Positions 2,892 to 58,035 of a stretch of DNA of 64,000 nt are shown here, piece by piece. Made by a program: the position numbers and the translations under genes. Source of the DNA: Allocoleopsis franciscana PCC 7113 (lineage in GTDB: Bacteria > Cyanobacteriota > Cyanobacteriia > Cyanobacteriales > Coleofasciculaceae); NCBI RefSeq assembly GCF_000317515.1, contig NC_019738.1, positions 6,846,001-6,910,000 on the forward strand. The letters run 5' to 3'. The number at the start of each line of letters is the position of its first letter. The first letter of the stretch is position 1. Under the pieces are notes generated by a model. It saw nothing but the letters and a program-made list of their open reading frames with translations, ran no database searches and had not been told where the DNA came from.

Positions 2892-3917
2892 ATGACTTAT
2901 TATGAAATACCGCTTGTAGTGCAAAGAGCGGTATCTAAAAAACCAATGGTTAGTGAAATATCGGCCGATCGGTGTACCCCTATCCAACAGACTTCCCCTC
3001 TCATTTTAGTGGCAGATGATGACAAAATAACGCGATTGATGTTACATAAAGTTTTAAAAAGGGAAGGATATTCGGTTGTAGAAGCCTCTCAAGGAGATGA
3101 GTGCCTAGAAGTTTATAAACACACCCAACCCAGCCTGATTCTCTTAGATGCCATGATGCCAGTTATGGATGGTTTTGAGTGCTGCACAACCCTGCAATCC
3201 TTCCCAGGCAGCGAACACATCCCGGTGTTAATGATTACAGCACTAGACGATCAAGCCTCAGTCGATCGCGCTTTTGAAGTTGGTGCTAGCGATTACATTA
3301 CAAAGCCAATTAACTTAGCTGTGCTGCGTCAACGGGTGCGAATTCTGATCGAAAAGTCTCGACTTTATCGAGAGTTAGAACAAGCGAATCAAAAATTACT
3401 CCATTTAGCAACCATTGATAGCCTCACCCAGGTGTCTAATCGTCGCTCCTTTGATGAGTACTTAAGCCGGGAGTGGCAGCGAATGGCACGAGAGTTCTCC
3501 CCAATTTCGCTAATTTTGTGTGACGTTGACTTTTTCAAAAATTATAACGATACCTATGGTCATCCTTGCGGAGACGCCTGTTTAAAAGCCGTAGCGCGTA
3601 CTATCTCCGAGTCGGTAAAGCGTCCCGCTGATTTAGTGGCACGTTACGGTGGAGAAGAATTTGCCGTAATTCTGCCGAATACAGAAGGGATCGGTGCTGC
3701 TCATATCGCTCACAACATTCAGTCTAAGATTAGGGCTTTGAAAATTCCTCATGCCAATTCCGATGTGAGTGAATATGTCACCGTGAGTATCGGAATTGCT
3801 AGCCTCTTTCCCACATCTGAGTCTATCGCTGATACACTCATTGCGGCTGCCGATCGCGCCCTCTATCGGGCAAAAGCCCAAGGACGGAATTGTCTCATCT
3901 TCTCAACAAATTGTTAA
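2892..3917 (+). CDS. Response regulator with GGDEF diguanylate cyclase output domain
   Basis: The 341-residue protein begins with a receiver domain (about 36-155). It shows the acidic pocket ADDDK (41-45), the phosphoacceptor Asp86 in LLDAMMP, and a conserved T/K pair. A short coiled linker (about 155-175) leads to a GGDEF domain (about 175-340). GGEEF (253-257) is the active-site form, and RPAD (244-247) lies five residues upstream as the inhibitory I-site. It is therefore predicted to make cyclic di-GMP under phosphorylation control with product feedback. No EAL domain and no partner kinase lie next to it. An alternative start at Met19 (2946) would give a shorter N-terminus before the receiver. 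Confidence 0.93.
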   Translation: MTYYEIPLVVQRAVSKKPMVSEISADRCTPIQQTSPLILVADDDKITRLMLHKVLKREGYSVVEASQGDECLEVYKHTQPSLILLDAMMPVMDGFECCTTLQSFPGSEHIPVLMITALDDQASVDRAFEVGASDYITKPINLAVLRQRVRILIEKSRLYRELEQANQKLLHLATIDSLTQVSNRRSFDEYLSREWQRMAREFSPISLILCDVDFFKNYNDTYGHPCGDACLKAVARTISESVKRPADLVARYGGEEFAVILPNTEGIGAAHIAHNIQSKIRALKIPHANSDVSEYVTVSIGIASLFPTSESIADTLIAAADRALYRAKAQGRNCLIFSTNC

Positions 3918-44063: not shown

Positions 44064-44135
<72 letters not shown>

Positions 44136-44141
44136 TTTTGT

Positions 44142-44210
44142 TGTACATTTGTCCATTAAAGAGTTATTTGTCAGTTTTAAAGACTTAATGTCCAAAACTG
44201 CGAGTTTTGG
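44142..44210 (+). repeat. tRNA-side transposon end with TnsB-type binding repeats
   Basis: Starts TGTACA, the tip seen in V-K elements, followed by TTTGTCCATTAA, GAGTTATTTGTCAGTTTTAA and GACTTAATGTCC in series. These are repeated (T)TGTC...TTAA units. The order and spacing match the other end (57971-58035) read in reverse. A small perfect hairpin CCAAAACT-GCG-AGTTTTGG follows at 44192-44210. Confidence 0.85.
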
Positions 44211-44255
44211 TCGTTTCAGGTTCTTACATTACTTCATCTCAACCAAAAATCAGTA

Positions 44256-45403
44256 GACATCTCCGAAATATAATTAAAAACCGAAAATAAAGTGGTAATA
44301 TTATAATTTACTTTTTAATTTTTACAGTAAAATGAGTAATATACCAGAGTACCTTGAAAAAAATCAACAAGAAAGTAAACGATTAATTGGACTAGAGTAC
44401 GAACAGTTACAGCAATTAATAGCTGCCGCTGAATTATTACATCAACAGAAAGATATCGAGATTGAGCAAAGAAAAGTAAGGATAAACAAGGCAGGAGGAG
44501 GTAGAAGACCAAAACTATCAGTCAAAGACCAAATAATATTAACTTTGGTATATCTACACCCGGAGCCAACATTCCAGATGCTAGGAGTCCAGTTCGGAGT
44601 TAGTGAATCAACAGCGAATGACATATTTCACTACTGGTCAGAGCTATTGAGGGAATTGCTGCCTGCTAGTCTGCTGGAACAAGTAAAAAAAATCCCGGTG
44701 AGTATAAATGGGTGCAAGAAATTCTCGCCGAGTTGGAGTTAATAGTGGATAGCTGTGAACAGCCAATACCGAGACCCAAGGACTATCAAGAACAAAAAAA
44801 GTTTTATTCAGGCAAAAAGAAAAACCATACTTTGAAAAATCAATTAATTGTCACACCAAATGGACAAGAGATTGTAGATGTTATAGTGGGAAAGCCAGGG
44901 CCGACTAGCGACATAAATATTTGGAGAGAAGGTCAATCCAAGTTAGCTCCAACACAAAAATTCAAAGGAGATAAAGGCTATATAGGAGAAGTCCAAATAG
45001 AAACTCCTCAAAAAAAGCCGAGAGCCAGGGAATTAAGCCAAGAAGAAAAACAAAAAAATCGAGAGAAAGCGAGTGAGAGAATATTTGTTGAACACGTAAT
45101 TAGATTACTAAAGATTTTCCGTGTAGCCCAAGAAAGGTTTCGCCTAAGAGCCAAGAGTTATCAGAGAATAATTCTTCTAGTGTGTGGATTAGTCAGATTA
45201 AGGATTGGGACGTTATTTATAAATAGCTCAGTCTGCGACTAAATCGATAAACATTTTAGATAAAAAATAGATATATTTGGGATAATTATTGATTTGAATT
45301 AGCTGTAGCCCTAATAAAAACGTTGAAATGGTTCAAATTACCCGGCTGCGTTAAATACTTCAAAAGCAGTCAGAGACTGCTTTTGGCTATTTTCGGAGAT
45401 GTC
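44256..45403 (+). mobile_element. IS5-type insertion sequence, 1148 bp
   Basis: Inverted repeats GACATCTCCGAAAT (left) and its near-perfect match at the right border 45403 are each flanked by TA, a 2-bp target duplication. It lies 114 bp inside the tRNA-side transposon end. A hairpin CAAAAGCAGTC-AGA-GACTGCTTTTG sits just inside the right end (45361-45385) and may protect the transposase gene from outside transcription. Confidence 0.85.
44332..45242 (+). CDS. IS5-type transposase in two frames joined at an A-run
   Basis: Frame 1 (44332-44742) has a helix-turn-helix (LSVKDQIILTLVYLHPEPTF, GVSESTANDIFHYW). Frame 2 (to 45242) has the DDE_Tnp_4-like domain (SGKKKNHTLKNQLIV, GDKGYIG, ERIFVEHVIRLLKIF). 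At 44684-44691 an A8 run in GTAAAAAAAATCCC lets a -1 shift join the two into EQVKKNPGEYKWVQEIL, a natural reading. It may therefore be expressed by slippage rather than broken. The combined length of about 305 residues fits the family. Confidence 0.75.
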
Positions 45404-45722
45404 TAATAAGACTCCCCTGACGGCGAAGACAAATAAGTTGCTAGGGGGAAAGGCTCCATCGGAGTATCTGGCGAATTTGGAGGCGCAGGGGATGTCAAGA
45501 CAGCGGATTGATGAGATTTTGCGATCGCATTTAATTGAGCCGGAGACATTGCGGAATGATGATTTTGAGGGGTTTTTTGAGGCGAGGACACAGGCGTTGT
45601 TGGCAATGATTGGTAAGGCGATGGGTAAGAGCTCGACGGTAGAGGCGTCTGAAGGGCTGGCAAATGGCAAGGCACAGCAAAATGGATTTTATTCTCACAA
45701 TGGGATGGGGGAATTGAGCTAA
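45399..45722 (+). pseudogene. C-terminal stub of a DUF262/GmrSD-like protein
   Basis: The open frame gives NKTPLTAKTNKLLGGKAPSEYL and DEILRSHLIEPETLRNDDFEGFFEARTQALL, the C-terminal signature seen in DUF262-containing proteins, some of which are modification-dependent restriction enzymes. The 5' part is missing, and the ATG at 45399 is supplied by the IS right end (GATGTCTA). A short further frame (about 45744-45876; GETWEEEELVDIRLAEDL) is another unidentified remnant. Not functional, but it shows that defence genes were once carried here. Confidence 0.65.
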
Positions 45723-45969
45723 ATCCAGCTTTTAGTCTGGCGATAGCTCGTCCGATGCAGAACTGCAAAAACTCGGTCAACGACTTGTTAAACCAAATGG
45801 CGAAACGTGGGAGGAGGAAGAACTGGTGGATATTCGATTGGCTGAAGATTTGAAGCGGAGACAACAAAAAAGGTGATCGGGTTGACTGCACCAAGCGTGG
45901 ATGTGATGCAGTTTGCCACTAAAGAGCGCTTTTTATGGGGCTATCCCAACTTTGACAACGTTAGCTGGA

Positions 45970-46296
45970 TTAGCTCTGTGACAGACTCTCAGAGACTGGA
46001 TCAAGCCTGTTTTCTGGGAGTGATACAGTTTTGTATGCCTGATAAGGGTGATTCGGTTGATCTGGGTATCTAAGTTCCAGCAAACCCTCCGTTAGTAAGA
46101 AGTCCAGATGATGAGTCCGAATAGTGTGTGTGCTACGGTTCAACAGTTCAGCCAAGGTCTTGAGTGGCAGATAACGTCCTGAACAAAGTTCTAGAATAAC
46201 GCGCTGCACTAACTGCGGTTCTGCTCGTTTCGTTTCGCGAACAGGGGTAGCAACTTTCCATAACTGGGGTTTGCTGTAAAAACCGGAAACCCTTAG
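45970..46296 (-). pseudogene. C-terminal remnant of an AlbA_2/ATP-binding type protein
   Basis: The minus-strand frame reads LCSGRYLPLKTLAELLNRSTHTIRTHHLDFLLTEG and ELRYPDQPNHPYQAY. This is the C-terminal winged-helix part found in Schlafen-like AlbA_2 ATP-binding proteins. It can be followed upstream to about 46296 (FYSKPQLWKVATPV), where the next IS begins. Everything upstream is lost. A different relative of the same family lies at 47923-51211. Confidence 0.6.
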
Positions 46297-46317
46297 CTAT
46301 AAATAGTTTGAGCGGTC

Positions 46318-47828
46318 TTGAAAGTTGTTCAGCTCCCAGGAAATCTGGTAGAATCCCACAAAATCCTTGTACCAAGAGCAGGGAAAATGTACAGAAAAGC
46401 TTCCTCAAGCCCGACCCCACCGGAAAACTTTGAGCTGCCCTTTGAGGGAAAGTTATCACAAGATAACCGTTGGGTAATCATGGCAAATCTGATACCCTGG
46501 GATGAATTTGAAGAGGAATACGCCAAAATTTTTTCTATTGATATGGGGGCACCTGCGCTGCCATTTCGGATGGCATTGGGTTCATTAATAATCAAAGAAA
46601 GATTAGGAATAAGCGATCGGGAAACAGTAGAACAAATAAAAGAAAACCCTTACTTACAATACTTTATAGGGAGAAAGCATTACAGCAACGAAGCCCCTTA
46701 TGATGCCTCACTTTTGGTAAGATTTAGAGAAAGGATAAATGTTGATTTAGTAAATCAAATAAATCAAAGAATGGTAAAGAAGATTCAGGAAGAAACAGAG
46801 GAGGAATCTAAAAAAAAAGCTCACTCTCAGAAAGGCAAGAAACAAGAGAAAGCCCGAATCAAGGGAAATTAATTCTGGATGCTACCTGTGCGCCAGGAGA
46901 TATCAGCTATCCCAATGACTTGGGTCTATTAAATCAAGCCAGAGTCAAAACGGAAAAGATAATAGATACTCTCTATAAGCCCCTAAAAGGGAGACTAAAG
47001 AAAAAGCCAAAAACTTATAGAAACCTCGCTCGGAAAGATTACTTGAAAGTCGCCAAAAAACGGAGATCGTCAAGAAAAGAGAGAAGAAAAGCTATAAAAA
47101 AACAACTGAAATATATAAAAAGAAATTTATCACACATTGACCAGCTCCTTCAGACAGGAGAAGCACTTGAGGGTTTGAGCATCTCTCAATATAAGAGCTT
47201 GCTGGTGGTGGCGGAAGTTTACCGTCAACAGCAATGGATGTATGAGAATAAAGCCCAGAGAATTGACGACAGAATAGTCAGTTTAAGTCAGCCCCATATC
47301 CGTCCAATTGTGAGAGGAAAAGCCGGAAAACCTGTAGAATTTGGAGCTAAACTAGCAGCAAGCGTCAGAGATGGATATGTCTTTTTAGACCGTATAAGCT
47401 GGGATAACTTTAATGAAGCCGGAGACTTAAAAGCCCAAATAGAAGCATTTAAACAGCACACAGGAGTCTATCCCGAATCAGTACATGTAGATAGAATTTA
47501 TCGAAATCGCGAGAATCGAGCATTCTGTAAAGAAAGAGGGATTAGAATAAGTGGCCCCCCCTTAGGCAGACCTCCAGCTAATGTCAGCTCAGACAAAAAG
47601 AAACAAGCCTTAGACGACGAGAAGGTTCGCAATGCTATTGAAGGAAAATTTGGCATCTCAAAGCGAAGATTTAGCTTGAATCGCGTCATGGCTAAACTGC
47701 CTCATACTTCTCAAACGGCTATTGCTATCACTTTTTTAGTCATGAATCTTTCCACCCTGCTACGGCAGTTTTTTTGTCTTTTTTTGTGCAATACACAACA
47801 TCACGCCTTTTTTCTCGATAACTATTAA
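46318..47828 (+). mobile_element. IS5/IS1182-type insertion sequence with transposase in two frames
   Basis: Frame 1 (46318-46872; probable start ATG 46387) has the DUF772-type N-terminus (FRMALGSLIIKERLGISDRETVEQIKENPYLQYFIG). Frame 2 (read from about 46820 after the shift, to 47828) carries the DDE domain (VHVDRIYRNRENRAFCKERGIRISGPPLGRP). An A9 run at 46810-46818 allows a -1 shift, after which the frame reads NQGKLILDATCAPGDISYP, the family norm. This points to slippage or programmed frameshift. I could not locate convincing terminal repeats, so element borders are only roughly 46300-47870. Confidence 0.75.
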
Positions 47829-49570
47829 TTCGGCTTATGCTTGTGGGAATTAACAACAACAAAAGCTCATTATTATTCCAGGATTAAATAACTGATTAAT
47901 CCATCGGTTGTTTTTCGCCGACTTATTCAGCAAGCCCTAACTGAAAATCTTCGCTATCCTCTAAACGAGGCTCGTTATGCTCGGAGTGAGGCTCGTTATG
48001 CTCAGAGGGTAGCGCCTTATGCTCGGAGCTAAATACCTTATGCTCGGAGCTAGAGGCATTATGCTCGGAGCCTGAGAGTAATGAAAACAAATCCGGTTGC
48101 TCTTGGTTTGGCAAATTGTAGTGAGTTCCGCGACCGCGACCAGATTGTTGTAACCAACCATTTCTCACAAGACGCTTGAGACATTCGCCTATTTCTCTAG
48201 GATGTTCCTGCCTATAACATTGAATGTCAGTATTAGTGATTTCTCCAAGTCGATGCGCTAGCACCAAGACAATCCGGTCTAGCTCAGTCAGGCTGCAATA
48301 AGAATCATTACCTACAATTTCCCTTAATTCTTTCTCAACATTTTCGGGAATCAAGCTGACCATTGGTAGAACAACTAATGTCATATCTAGGTCTAATTTT
48401 TCTGACACCAAGGGTCTAAACCATTGCTGTTCTCTCCAAGCGCGGAGAATCTTCTGAAAGCCAGAGCCTGCTTTTTCCCCCAGACCGAGCATTTGAAACA
48501 TTCTTTGCAGATTAGGGTTGCGAGGATCGGTATAACCACCCTCGTAAAGGCGCTGAAGCGGGATTCTAAGGCGACCCGGATTAGAGAATAAAAAACCTTC
48601 TTTACGTTTGATAACTAAGATAGGGCGAGTAGATTGATGAAATGCATGAATAAGAGTGTTTACCAAAGCTTCACGTAAGGCTTCATGCACATGGGTTTCA
48701 CCCTGACGTACAGCATCTTTGTCAAGTTTAAATGGAACATCTAGGTCATTAACTAGACGACCATAAACACGATAGTAAAAGTTGAAAAGATTAGGCTCCC
48801 ATTTGCCGTCAAGCGTCAGTCGATACGTCCATCGTGTTTCTGGATTTTCAGACAACTGCTCCTGATAATCAAGCTGGTGGTGAGGAAGAGCATCTAGGAG
48901 ACTGCGTTCCCGACCAAACATGAGCAGACCCGCTAGTGTCAGTCCTTCTGTACCTGTGCTGCGATTGCGACGCCAACCACCTAGCTGACAGAGCAGATTC
49001 CGATCATCTAGTGCCAGCCAAGGGTGATCGGGTTCCCTAGAACTAAACCGTTGACGAAAGGATTTCAGTGTCTCTGGGTCGAGGTCAGTCAAGTCAAACC
49101 CTTCTAAAATCTGAAAGTCTTGAGGGTCATTACTGGCATCCCGTAGCATCTGCTGCACTTCCTCTGGAGTGCAACGGTAATCTCCCTCATGATTACGCTT
49201 GTAGGTACCAGTCATGGGGTTATTGTTGATATACACAGGTCGCTGGGTACGTGTGGCTCTGGATACCCAAATAGTGACTAGGCTGTATCCATCAACTTTT
49301 ACAACTTGCACATCAGAGTTAGAACAGATTGGGGCATTGAGCTTTTGTAGGTTGTTATGAATATCCCAGAAGTTTTTCTGTGCGCCATTGGGGTTGCGTA
49401 CCCCAGAAATTACGAGCCTACCCTTACTCTCGCTTACACCGAGAACAATATAGCCTCCATCTGTATTGGCAAAGGCGGATACCGTTTCCCACAAATCTTT
49501 TGGTAATCCTCCATCGGCAGACTTGAACTCAATGTCTTGGTCTTCTCCGATGTCTAGACGTTGTAGTAAC

Positions 49571-51189
49571 GGAAGTTCCCCTTTGACAAAAAACTACAAC
49601 CTATGCTGTGAGAGAGGGAGAGACTCAACTCCTCGGCTGTTACTGGGTACAAATTAAGGAAACTTCTAACAAATCTAACGCTTTTTGTTGGAGTGGAGTC
49701 GGTTGAGTAATTTTCTCAAACATTAGAGAAGTCTCCAGACCACTAGACTGGAATTTATTTTTGACAATCGTTGCTAAATCAGTCATTAAAGTCCGAAAAC
49801 TATGGACAGGAAGCTTTTCAGGTGTCTTTTTAGTCGCTGCCTTAGCGCGGGCTTTCTTTGAACGCTTAGATGGAGCAACAATTGAACTTTTTCCCTCCGG
49901 TTCAACTGTGACTTTTTCATCGTCAAACAGCAGTGGAGCTAAAGCTTTCCTCATGTGCCACTCCACATAATAAGCCAGCATACACAAGAAGACGTGAGCT
50001 TTGACGCGCTGTTCTAAACGGTGATAAATTGGACGTACTTTCAAATCGATAGTTTTATAACTGCGGAAAGCTTGTTCGACAGTAGAAAGGCTTTTATAGG
50101 TTCTCACCGTTTGAGCCGCATCTAAAGTCTCCGGTTTGACTGAAGTCCGAATAATATAGACTCCATCCAAAGCCGAATCATTGGCGATAGCCGCTTCATT
50201 CAATGAGTAAGAAAAACTTGTCTCAGTGATGGCAATATTAAAGTATTTCCCCACACATGTAGCATTGAGAACTCGCCCCACTCTCAGTCCAATCTGGTCG
50301 GCTCCTTTGAGGGCGCGTTTATCTCGTGAAGTGGCGATAACAATCTTATTGAGTTCCTGCTGTGTCGCCTGTAATAAAGCAATTCTAGTCAAAGACTTTT
50401 CTTGAGCAAGCATCGGGTTGCGACAAGCAATTAGCCGCTCACTGGGGTAATCAGAACAAGAAAATTCTACTAAGTCAGTTTCATCAAATAATGAGAGTTG
50501 AACAGCTTCTTGTTCAAGAAGTTTCCGAAGCTCCTTCGGATAGATGTCTTAGGGCTAACTCATTTTCGATTAATTCTTGTTTGGATACCAGCCAATCCAT
50601 TGCTTCATACAATTCATCTTCATCGGCTTTTTCTAAGCCCAACAGTTCACTTAACGATGAATTGCACGTTTCGCTGTGCAATCCTCTCGCTGTGGCTAAC
50701 TTGGAACGAGGGTCAAGGAGACGCGCCACGATCATCGCCAAAACTAGAGCTCGTTTTCTCGAATTTGAGGGTGAGATTAGATGGTGCAAAGACAGTTTTT
50801 TGATTGTTCCTAAAACCGCAGCTACATGACCATGAGGTAGACTTCTTTCTACAGAGAATGATTCGGAGAGATTTTCAATAGCTGCGCCGCCTTTGAGCAC
50901 TATTCTCAAGTTATCAATGACAGTATCCGGTAATTTTGACAGGTTAGCTAAAGTTCTTTTACGGATTTTACCCCCTTCACGATAGGACTCTCGTAGGAGG
51001 ACAGCGGGGGGTGAATTTCTGTTAGGGACTCGTTCAATATACATGGCTACTATTGTCCCAGAAATCTCCCCGCCAAAATCTTAAAAAATTCTTAAAAACA
51101 TGGGTACGGCTTTCTGGGAGTAAATGGCTCTAGTTCCCGTCACTCAAGCTTTTTCTCCCTTTGTAGTTCATCTGTACGGGGGAACTTCC
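49571..51189 (-). mobile_element. IS1634-type insertion sequence, 1619 bp, internally deleted
   Basis: Inverted repeats GGAAGTTCCCC / GGGGAACTTCC lie at the borders. An exact 8-bp direct repeat GTAGTAAC flanks both (49563-49570 and 51190-51197). Removing the IS and one copy restores the AlbA_2 reading frame exactly. The transposase inside is deleted in the middle. The clean duplication implies a fairly recent insertion. Confidence 0.92.
49640..51044 (-). pseudogene. IS1634-type transposase, missing its central part
   Basis: The N-terminal part (51044-50514) reads YIERVPNRNSPPAVLLRES and ends ELALRHLSEGASET, just before where the first catalytic Asp should lie. The next piece joins directly to EAVQLSLFDETDLVEFSCSDYP and continues to LEVSLICTQ (49640). 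Roughly 100 or more residues are missing, including the first catalytic Asp, so this copy cannot move by itself. Confidence 0.85.
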
Positions 51190-51376
51190 GTAGTAACGTT
51201 TCTACATCCATTCAATTGAAAAATAGGTGATAGACGCTCCAGGCAACAAAGATTGCCTTCTATCATTCTAGTTTCAGCCTCTGGTTGAGTGCTGGTTCCT
51301 TCTCCAAAGGGGAAGCTATTTTCGAGTTCAGAGCGTGTACTACCTCATCGTCCTACTCTATTCCTGGTATCGTTAG

Positions 51377-52783
51377 CTAGATGGGTTCTGTGTCTTGCTG
51401 TTTTGCTTTCGTGCCACCATACTCAGCAGCATCACCCATCGTCTGAGTAGCGGCTTTGGCTTCCGCTTCGGCTTGTGCCTGTTCTGCGCCAATCTGTTCT
51501 AATAAGAGGGATGCAGGCTCATCATTGGAGTCTTGAGGAGTCAGTTCACCTCGAAAAGCACGATGCAGCAGGGTTTGAAATAAATGCTCTGCTTGGCGAG
51601 CGCCTTCCCGTTGTTGGGTGCGGATGCGTTCAAATTTCTGGACGATTTGGGCAAATTTTTCTTGGAGGGGGAGGGGGGGAATGGGAACAATACACTGTTT
51701 TACGATACCCGTACTAATAGTGTTTAATCCACTCGTAGTATTGCTTGAGGTATGAAAGTATTTTTGACCACCTGAATTATTTATATAGTGACTGAGATAG
51801 GCACTATTGACAATTTTAAGATTCACACGAACACGAATCAAATGGTTTTGATGTACACAATCTTTTATAGAGCCATCCCAGACTGCACACCTTCCAATCT
51901 CCGCAGCATTTCCGTGTCCTTCAACAATCAAGATGTCATCTTTTTGAAGCTTGACACGTATAAATTCTTCTTTTGTTAAACCTATTATTTTTATTTCTGA
52001 TAAATCTAGTTTGTTTCTATAAACATTGGCGACTCGGAGATAGGGTAACTTAAGTTCAAGATTATCTCTTTTCTGACTTAGTTGAAGTCCACCCTGTACT
52101 TCACTGATTTCATCTAATAATTTTGTTTTCCATCCTTTCGGATTAGCGATTGGGTCGCCGAACATCTCCAAAAAGACGGATCGCAGGTAGGTGTCGCTGA
52201 GTTGTAGGGCGTAGCGTCGGGTGCGTCGGAGTCTGTCGGCTTTTTGTGCGATCGCAGCAATCCGCTTTTGTTCCGCTAACGGCGGCAAAGGAATTTCTAC
52301 GTCCTTTAGCTTGGTCAGGCTAAGAAATGTACGAACAGTATCGGTAATTTCTTGCTTGAGTTGTGATTGAACAATATCGCTATTTAGACAAATTTCAAGG
52401 TATTTTGCGTTTACTTGACTTAAGTCAGGTGTAATTTTATTGAAATTTTGAGACATGATTGCTCGTGGAAGAGATTCAGGAATTTGAAAAGCAAGCCCTG
52501 AAGCTCCAACCGCTACAACAACGACATCCCCTGGCTTAACTTCGCTTCGCGCCAGCTCTTTAGCCTTTTCTTCACTAATAAATTTCAAATCCTCTAAGCT
52601 CAACTGACCATCAGATATATTCAGTCCTCTTAATACAGGTACTCCTGTATTTTGGTAATGTGCCGATGTCAGGTTTGAACCGAAAGGACCACTGGAAAGT
52701 GCATAATGAGATTTATCGGCGATTTCCTCCAACTTGACCCATCGCCATCCATTGGGTAACTTATTTGCTTTGGCTATCGACAT
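51377..52783 (-). CDS. hsdS: Type I restriction-modification specificity subunit HsdS
   Basis: The 468-residue protein has two target-recognition domains, each followed by a conserved helical repeat: TRD1 (about 1-165) then IPLPPLAEQKRIAAIAQKADRLR, and TRD2 (about 205-370) then IPIPPLPLQEKFAQIVQKFERIR. This is the full bipartite HsdS layout, apparently intact. However, the neighbouring hsdR and hsdM are collapsed, so it has no partner in this window. It might serve a methylase encoded elsewhere and change its specificity. It starts 14 bp after the upstream remnant. Confidence 0.9.
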   Translation of the reverse strand: MSIAKANKLPNGWRWVKLEEIADKSHYALSSGPFGSNLTSAHYQNTGVPVLRGLNISDGQLSLEDLKFISEEKAKELARSEVKPGDVVVVAVGASGLAFQIPESLPRAIMSQNFNKITPDLSQVNAKYLEICLNSDIVQSQLKQEITDTVRTFLSLTKLKDVEIPLPPLAEQKRIAAIAQKADRLRRTRRYALQLSDTYLRSVFLEMFGDPIANPKGWKTKLLDEISEVQGGLQLSQKRDNLELKLPYLRVANVYRNKLDLSEIKIIGLTKEEFIRVKLQKDDILIVEGHGNAAEIGRCAVWDGSIKDCVHQNHLIRVRVNLKIVNSAYLSHYINNSGGQKYFHTSSNTTSGLNTISTGIVKQCIVPIPPLPLQEKFAQIVQKFERIRTQQREGARQAEHLFQTLLHRAFRGELTPQDSNDEPASLLLEQIGAEQAQAEAEAKAATQTMGDAAEYGGTKAKQQDTEPI

Positions 52784-52796
52784 ACTGCAAATAATC

Positions 52797-53676
52797 TCAC
52801 TCTGACTTCACGCATTGCATGATTTCTTGCATTTCCGTCGTCATAATATGCTCTAACTTCAATAACCGCTCCATCGTCACCTGTGGTGACTCATAAAACG
52901 GCTCATCCTGCTCAATTTGACGGTAACGACTCGCTGAAAGGTCGTATTTATTCGCCTTCACCTGCGCCTTTGTCACCCAAAACTGGCGATTCAATTGATT
53001 GATTTCCGCTTGCAGGGGTGCCATTTGCTCGTGCAGTTGTGCTAATTGTTGCCTATCTGCTTCCAAAGCGAGGCGAGTTGGCTCATCATCGGCAGGTGCA
53101 ACAGCATTCTCAAATGTCAGGCGATTGATTTCCTTGAGCAGCTTCAACCGTTCAGCCTTCATCGGTGCAACTTCAGATTCTAACTCACTCAACTGACGCT
53201 GGCTAATAAACTCCTCAAAATTCCGCCTCACCACCTCCTGATAATCTGGCAGTGCCTCAATCTCCATCAACTCCCGCAAAAACGCCAGCAAACTATTCAC
53301 CTTCAAATTAAACGCCTTGCGAATATTCGACTCCGATAACTGCACATTCCCCCCACCCAACTCTTGCCGCAGCGTTCTCTCCAACGCCACCAGTTGCAAA
53401 TCCGTCACCGCTTCCCCATTCCGAATTGCCGCAATCGTCGGGTGATTTTCCACAATCTCCAACACCTTCCCCTCAACCCGCTGGCGGTATTCCTCAATAT
53501 AAACTTGCTCTCCCCCCTCACCCAACGTGATATAACCACTGGTAGCAATCCGGTCTGCCAAGTCAATCTCAACAAACGAACTGGGACGCTGACGCCGATT
53601 CTTCATCTGACTTGCCAAATCCGCAATAACCCGATTCAACTATTTCTTTTCTAGTATTCGCTTCGTTGCGAGACAT
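52797..53676 (-). pseudogene. Collapsed hsdR-hsdM fusion (type I restriction remnant)
   Basis: Three pieces are joined. From ATG 53676 come about 13 codons typical of an HsdR start (MSRNEANTRKEIVESG). In another frame from 53639 follows the HsdR C-terminal domain (GYITLGEGGEQVYIEEY, NIRKAFNLKVNSLLAFLREL, DYQEVVRRNFEEFI). This then runs in frame into the C-terminus of HsdM (RQFWVTKAQVKANKYDLSAS, YRQIEQDEPFYESPQVTMERL). The HsdR nuclease and motor domains and the HsdM NPPY methylase core are gone. Two deletions would explain this. The HsdM tail normally contacts HsdS, so a short product might still bind HsdS; that is inference. Confidence 0.8.
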
Positions 53677-53841
53677 TCAATACTTCCGAGAACTGGCTAG
53701 AGCGATCGCGTTACTCTCTTAGTGTTCCCACTAACTGAGCATAAATCACTGCTAACTAGTTTGGCATTGCACTTGATTTTTTGCAGGCAATATGCATACC
53801 TATTCTCTGTCTAAACCTATGGAGAGAGAACGATGCCCCAC

Positions 53842-54303
53842 TCATTCGCCAATGAGCTTTTCATCAATGTCCCTTGCTAGTTCTTTAACGGTGTTAGCCC
53901 ACTGCCAACTTTTATCGCCTCCCATCAGAAGCCAGCGAATCCAGTCAACAGAAGGATACTGTTGATTGCCCCACCCTGGCTTTTCCTGATCTATTTCGGC
54001 ATTTTCAAAAAAATCCAGTATCTCATCAATATCTTGGAACGTGATTCGCTTGCCATCTGCAAGGGCTTGAGGCAACCTTAATTTTTCGCTCCCTCCATAT
54101 CGCTCATAGAGACTAAGACCTAACTTCGCCGGACTTTGCACTGAAACTGGCGCAATCACGCTATGTTCTCCCTCCTGGCGGCTGGCAAGCAGGATAGACA
54201 AGGATAGGGCTGCAATTTGGATGGGAATGATACTAGATGCAAGCATTTTCAGTTGCCAGGATGGAGGACACGAAAAGCAGTAAGCAAATTTGTTGTAGTA
54301 CAC
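53842..54303 (-). CDS. Unknown protein directly downstream of tniQ
   Basis: Up to 153 residues; the true start may be Met20 (54246). A hydrophobic segment (LASSIIPIQIAALSLSILLA) near the N-terminus is followed by a folded region with LGLSLYERYGGSEKLRLPQALADGKRITFQDIDEILDFF and a tryptophan-rich end (SVDWIRWLLMGGDKSWQW). I know no family. It begins 16 bp after tniQ in the same direction, so it is probably co-transcribed with the transposition genes and could have a role in targeting or regulation. It is not a MerR-type V-K repressor. Confidence 0.55.
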   Translation of the reverse strand: MYYNKFAYCFSCPPSWQLKMLASSIIPIQIAALSLSILLASRQEGEHSVIAPVSVQSPAKLGLSLYERYGGSEKLRLPQALADGKRITFQDIDEILDFFENAEIDQEKPGWGNQQYPSVDWIRWLLMGGDKSWQWANTVKELARDIDEKLIGE

Positions 54304-54319
54304 TCACTATAAAACTAGG

Positions 54320-54883
54320 CTAGACGCTTTTCGAGTCAGACCTAATGCCTAATCGCTTAGCCCTTTTTTCCTTTGCTATGATTTGCCGTTTTTTCATGGA
54401 AGTAAACTTCATGCCACAGCGTTGACAGTTGCCATCTTTCCACTCTGATGGCAGTGGGAATTTCTCATCACAGGCAGGGCATCGTGATATCAGTGGTAAT
54501 TGATGTTTCTCACAGTATTCGGTTGATTGGAACTGCCAATGAATGCGGTGATAGGGAGCTTCACGATAACATACTGCACATAGGCGAGTTGAGCAAGTCA
54601 CCATTAGCACACCCTTTGGCGGACACAAGGCTTCAAGCTTACTGACTTCTACACCAATCAGCTTAGCCATTGCCTCCAATTCTTTCTGAGTCGGGCGCGG
54701 ATTAAACCGAAACTTCTCCCATCGAGATAGAGCCGTCCCAATCCCTGCTTTTCTGCTCAAACTTCCCGGAGCGGATATATTCACAATTTCCTGACGGCGA
54801 AAGCGTCCGAAGTAGTGGCTGATGCTTTCTCCTTCAAACGGCTCAAGATACCAGGGTGGATGTTGGGGGGCTTCAGTTTCCAT
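54320..54883 (-). CDS. tniQ: TniQ, short type V-K form
   Basis: The 187-residue protein starts with PWYLEPFEGESISHYFGRFRR, then the helix-turn-helix part (GIGTALSRWEKFRFNPRPTQKELEAMA). A double zinc-binding region follows with LCAVCYREAPYHRIHWQF, YCEKHQLPLISRCPACDEKF and CQRCG, all cysteines and the histidine present. This closely follows the small TniQ of V-K transposons (about 167 residues). There it caps TnsC filaments and contacts Cas12k and tracrRNA. A basic tail of about 20 residues (KKRQIIAKEKRAKRLGIR) is longer than usual. It lies 42 bp after tnsC and is probably in one operon. Confidence 0.93.
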   Translation of the reverse strand: METEAPQHPPWYLEPFEGESISHYFGRFRRQEIVNISAPGSLSRKAGIGTALSRWEKFRFNPRPTQKELEAMAKLIGVEVSKLEALCPPKGVLMVTCSTRLCAVCYREAPYHRIHWQFQSTEYCEKHQLPLISRCPACDEKFPLPSEWKDGNCQRCGMKFTSMKKRQIIAKEKRAKRLGIRSDSKSV

Positions 54884-54925
54884 TTCTTGAACCTACGAAT
54901 ACTTTCAATAAACGGAAGTTTTGAA

Positions 54926-55897
54926 TTAAACCTGTTTAAGCTTGGATATCGGTTGAAATTGAATGCCTAATGCTTGGGATATATTTTGAGAGTTAATTTG
55001 AGCCTTAGGATGGTCAAGCTTCCAAATAGCAATCTCCCGAAGATTTTCATATAAGGGTCTGAGCTGACCTTGAGAAGCCTCGTGCAGCAGCGCAACGATC
55101 TCAGGATTAGAGGCCAAGTTCAATGGCTTTGACCACTTTAACCCTGATTTTTCCCACTCTCCGATTACAGTCGCTGTATCCTGCCTAGACAGTAGATTAA
55201 AGGGGTGATACTTCAAAAATGTATTATGTATATTGATGTATCTTTTCTTTTTATTAGAGTTTGGATCGAGAATATCGTTTAAGTAAGGAGGACCTGTCAA
55301 AATCACCGAAATCTTCAGTTTTTCCGAAATTCTTACAAGCTCATTAAAAGCTGCAAATGATAATAACTCTGCCTGATTGACAATCAAGATTTTGACCCCA
55401 TACCCATTAAGGGTTCCCCATGTCCGCGCACGCAAATCTCGTAGGGGTCTACAATCAAAAGGATTGGAAAGAAACTCCAGAATCAGGAGAAATAAATCGG
55501 TAGGGCTGCCATGTTGTTCCATCTCAATATAGGCAACTGGGGCAGGAAGCTGTAAAAAATCACCTCGACGCTTTACACGTTGCTTCGTGTAGTAATCTAA
55601 CGCTTTTGATAAACCCAACCGATCAAAGGTAGTGACACGGGCACAGATTTTGAGGTCACGCCAGTAATCCAGGCGCTCAAATAAATTCTGATCTCGTTGC
55701 ACTCCTACATACGTATCAATCCGACCAATTCGCTCAACCTCGGCTTGTTGTTCAGGCGATCGACTTGGTTGCAGCCCAGGCTGCTGGATAGCTACATTCG
55801 CCTGAGTATTGCCAGCCCTTTGAGCATCCACTTTTTGCTGGGGCGAGTGGCGCGGTTCCTCCTCCGATGGCTGGATGGCTGTGTTGGATTTGCTCAT
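54926..55897 (-). CDS. tnsC: TnsC-like AAA+ protein with lost ATPase motifs
   Basis: The 323-residue protein aligns along its length with V-K TnsC. At the Walker A position (GESRTGKT in ShTnsC) it reads TTFDRLGL (about 89-96). At Walker B (LIIDEAD) it reads LIVNQAE (171-177), with Asp to Asn and Glu to Gln. Sensor 1 is ILTGPPYL, and the arginine-finger stretch (ERFRAHLRF) is NTFLKYHPF. The fold and flanking helices are kept. A 32-residue N-terminal duplication (SPQQKVDAQR / SPEQQAEVER) is extra. The gene has no stop or frameshift. It is predicted not to hydrolyse ATP. The start is 6 bp after tnsB. Confidence 0.88.
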   Translation of the reverse strand: MSKSNTAIQPSEEEPRHSPQQKVDAQRAGNTQANVAIQQPGLQPSRSPEQQAEVERIGRIDTYVGVQRDQNLFERLDYWRDLKICARVTTFDRLGLSKALDYYTKQRVKRRGDFLQLPAPVAYIEMEQHGSPTDLFLLILEFLSNPFDCRPLRDLRARTWGTLNGYGVKILIVNQAELLSFAAFNELVRISEKLKISVILTGPPYLNDILDPNSNKKKRYINIHNTFLKYHPFNLLSRQDTATVIGEWEKSGLKWSKPLNLASNPEIVALLHEASQGQLRPLYENLREIAIWKLDHPKAQINSQNISQALGIQFQPISKLKQV

Positions 55898-55903
55898 CTT
55901 CGT

Positions 55904-57805
55904 TTACCAGTTGTCTTCCATGAACTCATCCCAGTCAGGAACTACAAATAGAGCCGGCTTGACTGGCATTTCAGTTTGTTCATATACAGACTCTACACCC
56001 TCAGTAGGCTCCGAAGCGATCGCTTCGTTAACAGTTTTTCCCTTCTTTTTGCCTTTTGAAGAATCCTCTGGATGTAACTCCACAACCTTGGAATGAGTGG
56101 ATTTACTTGTAATGCGACGTTGTTCAGACTTTCGCCGTCCTTTTACAGTTTTTGCTTGCTCAATCGAAGAGGTGTACAAATCCCGTTGCTGTGCCAAGAT
56201 TGACGACTGATCGATCACTTTACCCTCATCACGAATTTTCTTCTTGCGATCTTCCCACTCCTTCAAAGACAACCGCTCCTCCTCTAAGTCCCTAGCCCTG
56301 ATACTACCTAGATACTTCGAGGGTTGACCGTTCTTCTCCCGCGTGTAGACGAGAATGTAAACGATATTGCTCGGATTGTATCTAAGCGTGACCTGGTAGC
56401 CTTCGTACTCTTCTAGGAAATTCGCATTTTTGTCGTATCGCCAATAGCCATCCTCATCTCTGCTCAAACTAGCCGTATACACTAGCCCTACAAACTCTAT
56501 ACATCCACGCTCTTGGACTTTTCGCTTTGCCTCCTTCATCAAACAGATATCGAGTTCTCGCTCACTGTCAGGCATTCTTGGCTTTCCACCCAGCAAGCCA
56601 GTCCACCATCGTTCTAGGCGGCGTGTTTGCTCCTTGTCTTTTCGGACTCTGGGATAAAAATGGTAATTGTGGTGGTCTACAAACTGCCGAACCAATTTCC
56701 TCTCATATTCTTCATAGACAACACAAGCCTTCTTCTCTGGATTCTTTGGGCGCTCCTGCAAGGAACCTCCCTTAAAACCCAGTACCAGTGCGGCAAATTC
56801 GGTCTTCAGTTCTAAAAATAATCGCTCTACCACTCCACCTTGCTCAGTATAGAGACGAAGGCGCATCTTGAAGCCCAAATCTGCTGCAATGTGTTTTAGA
56901 TGTGCAGACTTAAATTCCTTGGCTCTGTCAGTGACAACATACTCCGGTAGCCCACAAACCTCCCACTTTTCTCGGAGTTGGTACTCTTCACCGTAATGTT
57001 TTGGCAAAATGGCATGTCGGAGTGCTAAGGCAACTTCATGGGAACCTGGAGATTCAAAGCCAATGTGATACCCCATTACACAACCTGAGAAGGTATCGAT
57101 GACTGCGGTAATCCAAGCACAATTGACTAGCTCCCCATTGGCGTCTACCAGTAAGTTATCCAACTTGGTATGGTCAATCTGCCAAACTTGGTTGCTGCGC
57201 TCAACAACGATATCGCCATCAGTTGTTTTGACGATGAGTCCTGGTCCTTGCCCTGGATTCCGAACTTTGCGATTCTTTTTCTCGATAATCGGGTTGAGAA
57301 CTTTATACACAAACATATGCGAAGGGTATTCACCCTCTTTCAACCCTAACTCCAGTTCAGCATGTCCCTTGACTTGGTTATAGACAAGGTTTGGGGTCAT
57401 GCCTAGACCCGCTTTTTTAGCCTGCTTATAAGTATTGGTGATGAACTCTATCCAGTACTCAACACTATGCTTCCACCGTTTATAGCCTTTGAGTTGACCT
57501 GCATCAGAACGAGTAGTTCTAGCTATTGCAGCTAAACCCTTTTTCTCAACCTTCTCTAACCACCGCGTTATCGTTCTAGGATGCTTTTCCAGCCGGTCTG
57601 CCCACTGTTTGATTTTCTCTTGCTTGAGTTCGTCAGCAGCTTGGAGAATCTCCTCGAGCGCCTCAACCTTACGCATCACCTCCCGTTTCTCATCCAGGTC
57701 TTCAATCAGCTCAATTAGGATGTTGTATTCCTGAGTTGGTGGCTGTTCTTGGTCTGTTTGAGCAGCTTCGGTATCTTGAGTCGGTGAGATTTTCGCTGAT
57801 TCCAT
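55904..57805 (-). CDS. tnsB: TnsB, DDE transposase of type V-K-like Tn7 element
   Basis: The 633-residue protein has N-terminal DNA-binding domains (about 45-170; KQWADRLEKHPRTITRWLEKVEKKG is a helix-turn-helix). The RNase H-like catalytic core has Asp211 (WQIDHTKLD), Asp293 (VVTDRAKEF) and Glu327 (GGVVERLF), with spacing equal to that of ShTnsB as I recall it. A beta-barrel (about 420-530) and a disordered basic tail follow. It ends with FVVPDWDEFMEDNW, which resembles the C-terminal hook that ShTnsB uses to bind TnsC. Catalysis therefore appears intact. Its start lies 230 bp inside the pyrC-side transposon end. Confidence 0.95.
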   Translation of the reverse strand: MESAKISPTQDTEAAQTDQEQPPTQEYNILIELIEDLDEKREVMRKVEALEEILQAADELKQEKIKQWADRLEKHPRTITRWLEKVEKKGLAAIARTTRSDAGQLKGYKRWKHSVEYWIEFITNTYKQAKKAGLGMTPNLVYNQVKGHAELELGLKEGEYPSHMFVYKVLNPIIEKKNRKVRNPGQGPGLIVKTTDGDIVVERSNQVWQIDHTKLDNLLVDANGELVNCAWITAVIDTFSGCVMGYHIGFESPGSHEVALALRHAILPKHYGEEYQLREKWEVCGLPEYVVTDRAKEFKSAHLKHIAADLGFKMRLRLYTEQGGVVERLFLELKTEFAALVLGFKGGSLQERPKNPEKKACVVYEEYERKLVRQFVDHHNYHFYPRVRKDKEQTRRLERWWTGLLGGKPRMPDSERELDICLMKEAKRKVQERGCIEFVGLVYTASLSRDEDGYWRYDKNANFLEEYEGYQVTLRYNPSNIVYILVYTREKNGQPSKYLGSIRARDLEEERLSLKEWEDRKKKIRDEGKVIDQSSILAQQRDLYTSSIEQAKTVKGRRKSEQRRITSKSTHSKVVELHPEDSSKGKKKGKTVNEAIASEPTEGVESVYEQTEMPVKPALFVVPDWDEFMEDNW

Positions 57806-57970
57806 AAGATAAATTAATAAATTAAAGCGATTAATGGGAAAAAGGCATTTATCGGTTTAAAATAATTTTGGTCGATTTTCAGGGAAAAGGCAAATAGCTA
57901 TTTAAACTTGGTGAGAAAATAAAGAGAATACAAAAAAGCTTGAAGCTTAGTTTCAGTAAGCGTTTCAAGC

Positions 57971-58035
57971 CACAAATTTAGCGTGACACTAAGTGTTTAA
58001 ACTCGACAAATATCTCGTTAATGGACAACATTAAA
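57971..58035 (-). repeat. pyrC-side transposon end with TnsB-type binding repeats
   Basis: Read on the minus strand from the outside: TTGTCCATTAACGAGATATT, then TGTCGAGTTTAA, CACTTAGTGTCACGC and AATTTGTGGC. The first three units match the tRNA-side end in order and spacing. The outer 5-8 bases (TTTAATGT) differ from TGTACATT, so the exact tip is uncertain (58030-58035). The tnsB promoter must lie between here and 57806. Confidence 0.78.

Follow-up and report, generated by a model that had tools for sequence, protein, structure and literature searches.

A TnsC lacking the residues of the ATP site appears to mark a selected branch of type V-K CASTs

In current models of V-K CAST specificity, TnsC filaments are cleared from wrong DNA by TnsB-stimulated ATP hydrolysis. 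A tnsC gene in the window, the 64,000-nucleotide stretch of Allocoleopsis franciscana PCC 7113 analysed here, raises the question of whether a TnsC can serve its transposon once the nucleotide site has been lost. The preliminary description had presented the gene as full length and in frame, with every ATPase motif replaced. The reading frame is indeed uninterrupted from 55897 to 54926 on the minus strand, and the plus strand of the same segment contains 17 stops. The product matches the Pfam families AAA_22 (7e-11) and TniB (1e-5), and it aligns with ShTnsC (PDB 7m99/8rdu) over residues 35-302 (E 4e-21; 1.9e-79 with the family profile); its N-terminal extension, roughly 45 aa long, has no counterpart in ShTnsC.

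In this alignment, the Walker A motif GESRTGKT corresponds to TFDRLGLS, in which the second Gly is kept while Lys66 has become Leu and Thr67 has become Ser. The Walker B motif IIDEAD corresponds to IVNQAE, and the arginine-finger stretch (R189/R191 of ShTnsC) reads NTFL, with both Arg gone. The Walker A register proposed earlier (TTFDRLGL) was one residue off; the replaced Walker B motif and the lost arginine finger and P-loop Lys were recovered as described. AlphaFold models of the window TnsC and of a relative from Scytonema NIES-4073, built from shallow alignments, are poor (pLDDT 52 and 54, respectively), and a fold search with the low-confidence TnsC model, which returned ShTnsC structures as top matches (E 5e-7), lends weak support. 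Judged by its sequence, the protein is a TnsC of the V-K CAST type, with the homology and AAA+ fold of that family, from which the P-loop Lys and Thr, the Walker B acids and the arginine finger are missing. We refer to this form as pTnsC.

The gene lies in an element of 13,878 bp (44150-58027) bounded by the inverted ends TGTCCATTAA at 44150 and 58027, with AATGT duplicated at both flanks (Table 1). As in V-K CASTs, its TnsB is of the V-K type with a DDE triad, its TniQ is short, and no TnsA was recognised among its ORFs. A tblastn search with two Cas12k queries found no Cas12k in the element, and no CRISPR repeat or array was found there. Because both are gone, the window copy is no longer a working CAST; it is a decayed CAST derivative. 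By analogy with relatives that carry tRNA-matching guides, the layout points to the adjoining tRNA-Cys gene as the putative homing target, with 66 nt from the protospacer start (the base that follows the D-loop GGTA) to the element end. The window genome holds no guide for this tRNA at <=2 mismatches over 19 nt, and in 20 relatives no junction of pyrC with tRNA-Cys, as an empty site would show, was found. The copy may still have been a CAST when it inserted next to tRNA-Cys, with Cas12k and the guide lost later.

Table 1. Features of the window element and loci of the two-gene mini-elements (positions are those of the window unless a locus is named)
Feature	Position	Strand	Remarks
tRNA-Cys (GCA), putative homing target	44064-44135	+	ARAGORN; adjoins the 44150 end
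D-loop GGTA (PAM GTA)	44080-44083		putative protospacer start 44084
Target-site duplication, copy 1	44145-44149		ACATT on +, AATGT on -
Transposon end, former cas12k side	44150-44223	+	TGTCCATTAAAGAGTTATTTGTC...; inverted match to tnsB-side end (24 bp); 90% to G001 end over 74 bp
Decayed cargo	44224-53640		IS fragments, chimeric hsdR/hsdM remnant, hsdS (ORFs, Pfam)
Unknown protein, 153 aa	53842-54303	-	two homologues each in G000 and G001, next to tniQ; no Pfam/NCBIfam match
tniQ	54320-54883	-	187 aa, short V-K type with zinc ribbon; Pfam TniQ 3e-7
Degenerate tnsC (pTnsC)	54926-55897	-	323 aa; K66L, T67S, D144N, E145Q, R189T (ShTnsC numbering)
tnsB	55904-57805	-	633 aa; DDE motifs DHTKLD, VTDRAKEF, GGVVE; C-terminal TnsC-binding hook DWDEFMEDNW kept; ShTnsB E 1.5e-101
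Transposon end, tnsB side	57980-58027	-	TGTCCATTAACGAGATATTTGTC...
Target-site duplication, copy 2	58028-58032		AATGT on -
Mini-element, G534	L127:8140-12114		
Mini-element, G482	L129:7839-11843		
Mini-element, G482	L130:7384-11388		

Two further observations concern the genes of the element. Within the cargo, the C-terminal segment of the restriction subunit HsdR is fused to that of HsdM in an ORF at 52797-53639, the mark of a deletion in type I restriction genes of which genome G001 retains a fuller set. The protein encoded just downstream of tniQ, small (139-153 aa) and of no assigned family, recurs at this position in V-K elements of the window genus (also at L038:8108-8527, L039:11104-11535 and L033:13254-13688), where it accompanies canonical and degenerate TnsCs alike.

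Relatives of the window TnsC were sought by whole-genome searches, using both the protein and a profile as queries. The scan of genome contigs with the window protein alone gave no match, and an alignment of a subclade used instead gave 22 named loci. Full-length intact members of the clade scored 295 to 607 bits, whereas ordinary TnsCs scored up to 146 bits. The motifs were read in an alignment of 77 distinct TnsCs, 19 from the clade and 58 from outside it. Lys66, Glu145 and Arg189 are lost in all 19 clade members and Asp144 in 18, whereas GK[ST] is kept in each of the 58 others; such a distribution is therefore not due to chance. With the motif columns removed, the tree still recovers the clade as one group (support 100/98), the members of which diverge down to about 40% identity with mostly intact frames. 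The clade is spread across cyanobacteria, and its named hosts include Scytonema sp. NIES-4073, Nostoc linckia FACHB-104, Calothrix membranacea, Hassallia byssoidea and MAGs labelled Crocosphaera. The TnsC of G278, which retains one Walker B Asp (LIVDDAE), looks from its sequence like an intermediate. Six members are broken (G344, G477, G278, G511, G524 and G065); stops or frameshifts occur in some relatives.

Pairwise dN/dS was calculated by the Nei-Gojobori method with our own script. Nine of the eleven countable pairs gave 0.09-0.17 and one pair with a rearranged C-terminus gave 0.26; the TnsBs gave 0.12-0.22. The direct comparison of the window with G001 gave 0.52, from 12.5 synonymous and 22.5 nonsynonymous differences (35 changes), which is below 1 at p = 0.037. 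Within one subclade of eight members, the ratio is 0.036 (0.008-0.075) over the three former motif windows combined, 0.093 over the remaining core and 0.345 over the N-terminal extension; between the window and G001 the motif windows show no amino acid difference. That no part of the protein is better kept than the altered site in this subclade points to a pocket that was rebuilt, not abandoned. The preliminary description had proposed a selective loss of the nucleotide site, to be given up if no other genome carried the degenerate form or if dN/dS was near 1. The form occurs in many genomes, and the ratio of about 0.1 in the family bears out the proposal, although the window-G001 pair taken alone does so less clearly. 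On this comparative evidence, pTnsC is a distinct, selected branch of the type V-K CASTs and not a decaying one-off. Between the window and G001 (L033), synonymous divergence is 0.28 in tnsB and 0.06 in tnsC, a mismatch that suggests recombination or gene conversion.

The branch has also been mobile. The G001 element, which encodes a TnsC 93% identical to that of the window together with TniQ, type I restriction genes, Cas12k (5e-195) and a three-repeat array, sits at a different site from the window element; thus, at least one transposition took place after the nucleotide site was lost. Bounded CASTs with perfect 5-bp duplications were found in G001 (TCTTT), G507 (TATGG), G485 (TATGG), G572 (AAACT) and G255 (ACAAT), and all five combine TnsB, TnsC, TniQ, Cas12k, a CRISPR array and a guide matching the flank. 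In G572, tniQ is split over two frames, and in G255 the guide match falls beyond the end of another element. The short guide that follows the degenerate repeat has its counterpart in the flanking DNA outside the cas12k-side end: the match is exact in G001, G507 and G490 and has one mismatch in G485, G572 and G521, and GGTA lies on the PAM side of each. The distance from the PAM side to the element end, duplication included, is 54 in G507, G485, G490 and G521, 66 in G572 and the window, and 71 in G001, as compared with 58-62 in five canonical V-K elements measured in the same way. The distance varies by subclade, with 66-71 in the branch of the window, and the spacing ruler seems to have changed in this clade, in both directions. 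In a separate observation, several V-K elements of both the canonical and the degenerate kind lie near tRNA-Pro in the region G255:C3:3040001-3120000 (L070-L073), either nested or adjacent to one another, and they share one short guide.

The TnsBs of pTnsC elements form one clade (support 100), separate from those of canonical elements, and they keep the DDE residues and the TnsC-docking hook. In all the elements read, tnsB and pTnsC are neighbours and co-inherited. Monophyly of the Cas12k proteins of pTnsC elements was not recovered: they form separate groups scattered among the canonical ones, which suggests an exchange of Cas12k modules. The TniQ of G004 (L036:2143-2727) and that of the window are 90% identical, and the adjacent TnsCs are 40% identical. 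To judge from these comparisons, tnsB-tnsC and tniQ-cas12k are shuffled as modules, and the Cas12k interleaving together with the identity mismatch indicates that the TnsB-pTnsC pair is a unit combined with different target modules.

The pair also occurs in mini-elements, which consist of tnsB, pTnsC and one ORF of about 197 aa in the opposite direction. G482 carries two 100% identical copies of 4,005 bp on two contigs, with the duplications AATGC and CCAGG, and G534 carries three copies at 99.95%, one with the duplication ACTTG. These elements have moved and multiplied recently. Neither tniQ nor cas12k was found in the mini-elements of G482 and G534, and the G534 genome showed no Cas12k and no other TnsC; TnsB and pTnsC therefore appear to be sufficient among the Tns proteins. 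Since the mini-elements lack TniQ, bridging to TniQ, as in the fixed TnsB/TniQ adaptor suggested in the preliminary description, cannot be the only role of pTnsC.

Based on these data, we propose, with a probability of roughly two in three, that pTnsC acts as an ATP-independent scaffold of AAA+ fold. The protein would keep the fold and its scaffolding function without ATP; at the target, TniQ and guide-bound Cas12k would seed a short oligomer of pTnsC, onto which TnsB would dock through its C-terminal hook. Target choice would result from weak, nucleation-dependent assembly in place of the hydrolysis that strips filaments off wrong DNA, and in the mini-elements the TnsB-pTnsC pair would insert guide-free. 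In ShCAST, the non-hydrolysable analogue AMP-PNP leaves transposition in place and abolishes targeting, and the same outcome is seen with TnsB mutants defective in stimulating hydrolysis (PMC9876797). A TnsC without an ATP site would thus be expected to insert without targeting, yet pTnsC CASTs sit at guide-matched sites; the simplest account would be an ATP-free assembly that forms only where TniQ and Cas12k nucleate it. RNA-guided insertion may thus be possible without an ATP-driven control step. On balance, we favour the wider view that a natural branch of RNA-guided transposons chooses its targets without ATP, its AAA+ adaptor now being a rebuilt scaffold that is free of nucleotide and has a changed spacing ruler, and that the same branch gave rise to two-gene elements that move without TniQ and Cas12k. 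Several points count against the scaffold: the ShCAST filament requires ATP binding, and ShCAST is severely impaired once the Walker B Glu is lost (PMC11406308); to these are added the ratio of 0.52 in the window-G001 pair, the six broken members, the low-pLDDT models and the draft state of several genomes.

A scaffold free of nucleotide is not the only way to read a conserved, altered pocket. pTnsC might hold ATP or another nucleotide through relocated residues, namely the Lys of GLSK and a VKRRG patch, and switch without hydrolysis. The Lys at position 68, two positions on, is kept in nearly all members and the RRG patch is conserved across the clade, and the strong conservation of the site in one subclade would fit such a use; however, the Walker B Asp, the P-loop Thr and the nucleotide-sensing Arg189 are lost as well, and the intermediate G278 has no Lys68. 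We regard this reading as unlikely. Alternatively, pTnsC could be a mixed-filament subunit or adaptor that relies on other V-K elements in the same genome to supply an ATPase-competent TnsC. The preliminary description had noted that an intact TnsC elsewhere would weaken its case, and the window genome does contain two intact V-K TnsCs; further TnsCs accompany pTnsC in G001, G125, G255 and G485. Against this, no canonical V-K TnsC was seen in G534, despite its three copies, or in G507, G514, G552, G572 and G583, several of which are incomplete draft assemblies; G534, G514 and G552 showed no other small TniB-family protein; and the TnsBs of the two kinds form separate clades. Because several genomes lack a canonical TnsC, we consider help in trans improbable.

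It is very improbable that pTnsC is a regulator or immunity protein and that TnsB moves the element alone: the mini-elements do without TniQ and Cas12k, as this would allow, but they retain exactly tnsB and pTnsC as their Tns genes, the TnsB hook is kept, and the two genes stay adjacent and co-inherited. Least credible is a pseudogene in early decay, which the lost Cas12k and guide and broken cargo of the window element, its ratio to G001 and the damaged relatives might suggest, but which is contradicted for the family by one degenerate site shared among 19 distinct proteins, the low dN/dS and recent transposition.

The scaffold that we favour would set pTnsC apart from its known counterparts. 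The complete pTnsC relatives resemble ShCAST of Scytonema hofmannii (TnsB, TnsC, TniQ, Cas12k) in gene order, TnsB hook, short TniQ, Cas12k and CRISPR array, and they share with ShCAST-type V-K CASTs the delocalised short guide to a tRNA, the GTN PAM and the 5-bp duplication. They differ in having no ATP-site residue in TnsC and in a spacing of 54 or 66-71, and the window copy differs further in its lack of Cas12k. MuB, IstB of IS21 and TnsC of prototypic Tn7 are likewise AAA+ partners that link a DDE transposase to target DNA, but they depend on ATP, unlike the proposed pTnsC. If the scaffold is correct, a conserved CAST branch homes without an ATP site and hydrolysis would not be essential for RNA-guided targeting; pTnsC CASTs would then be natural compact candidates for genome engineering with a different target discipline. 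Since the ends, guides and PAMs of complete elements are known, the idea can be tested in E. coli.

The preliminary description knew of no Tn7-like system with such a TnsC, a statement that does not hold: a review mentions multiple V-K TnsCs without canonical Walker motifs, some lacking a typical Walker A and others the catalytic Glu (PMC11406308, section 2.5). The phenomenon is the same, but the review mentions it in a single sentence that names no members and does not address phylogeny, selection or mobility, whereas here a clade is defined. The literature searched, which covers subscription journals thinly so that an earlier description may exist, held no further treatment, and the structure, selection and mobility of the clade appear to be uncharacterised so far. 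A second non-canonical group comprises four TnsCs with an intact P-loop (GPRxVGKS), a Walker B Asp-Asn and no arginine finger; they form one clade with its own TnsB (L035:758-1612 in G125, L081 at about 3022-3756 in G001 C6, L067 and L068).
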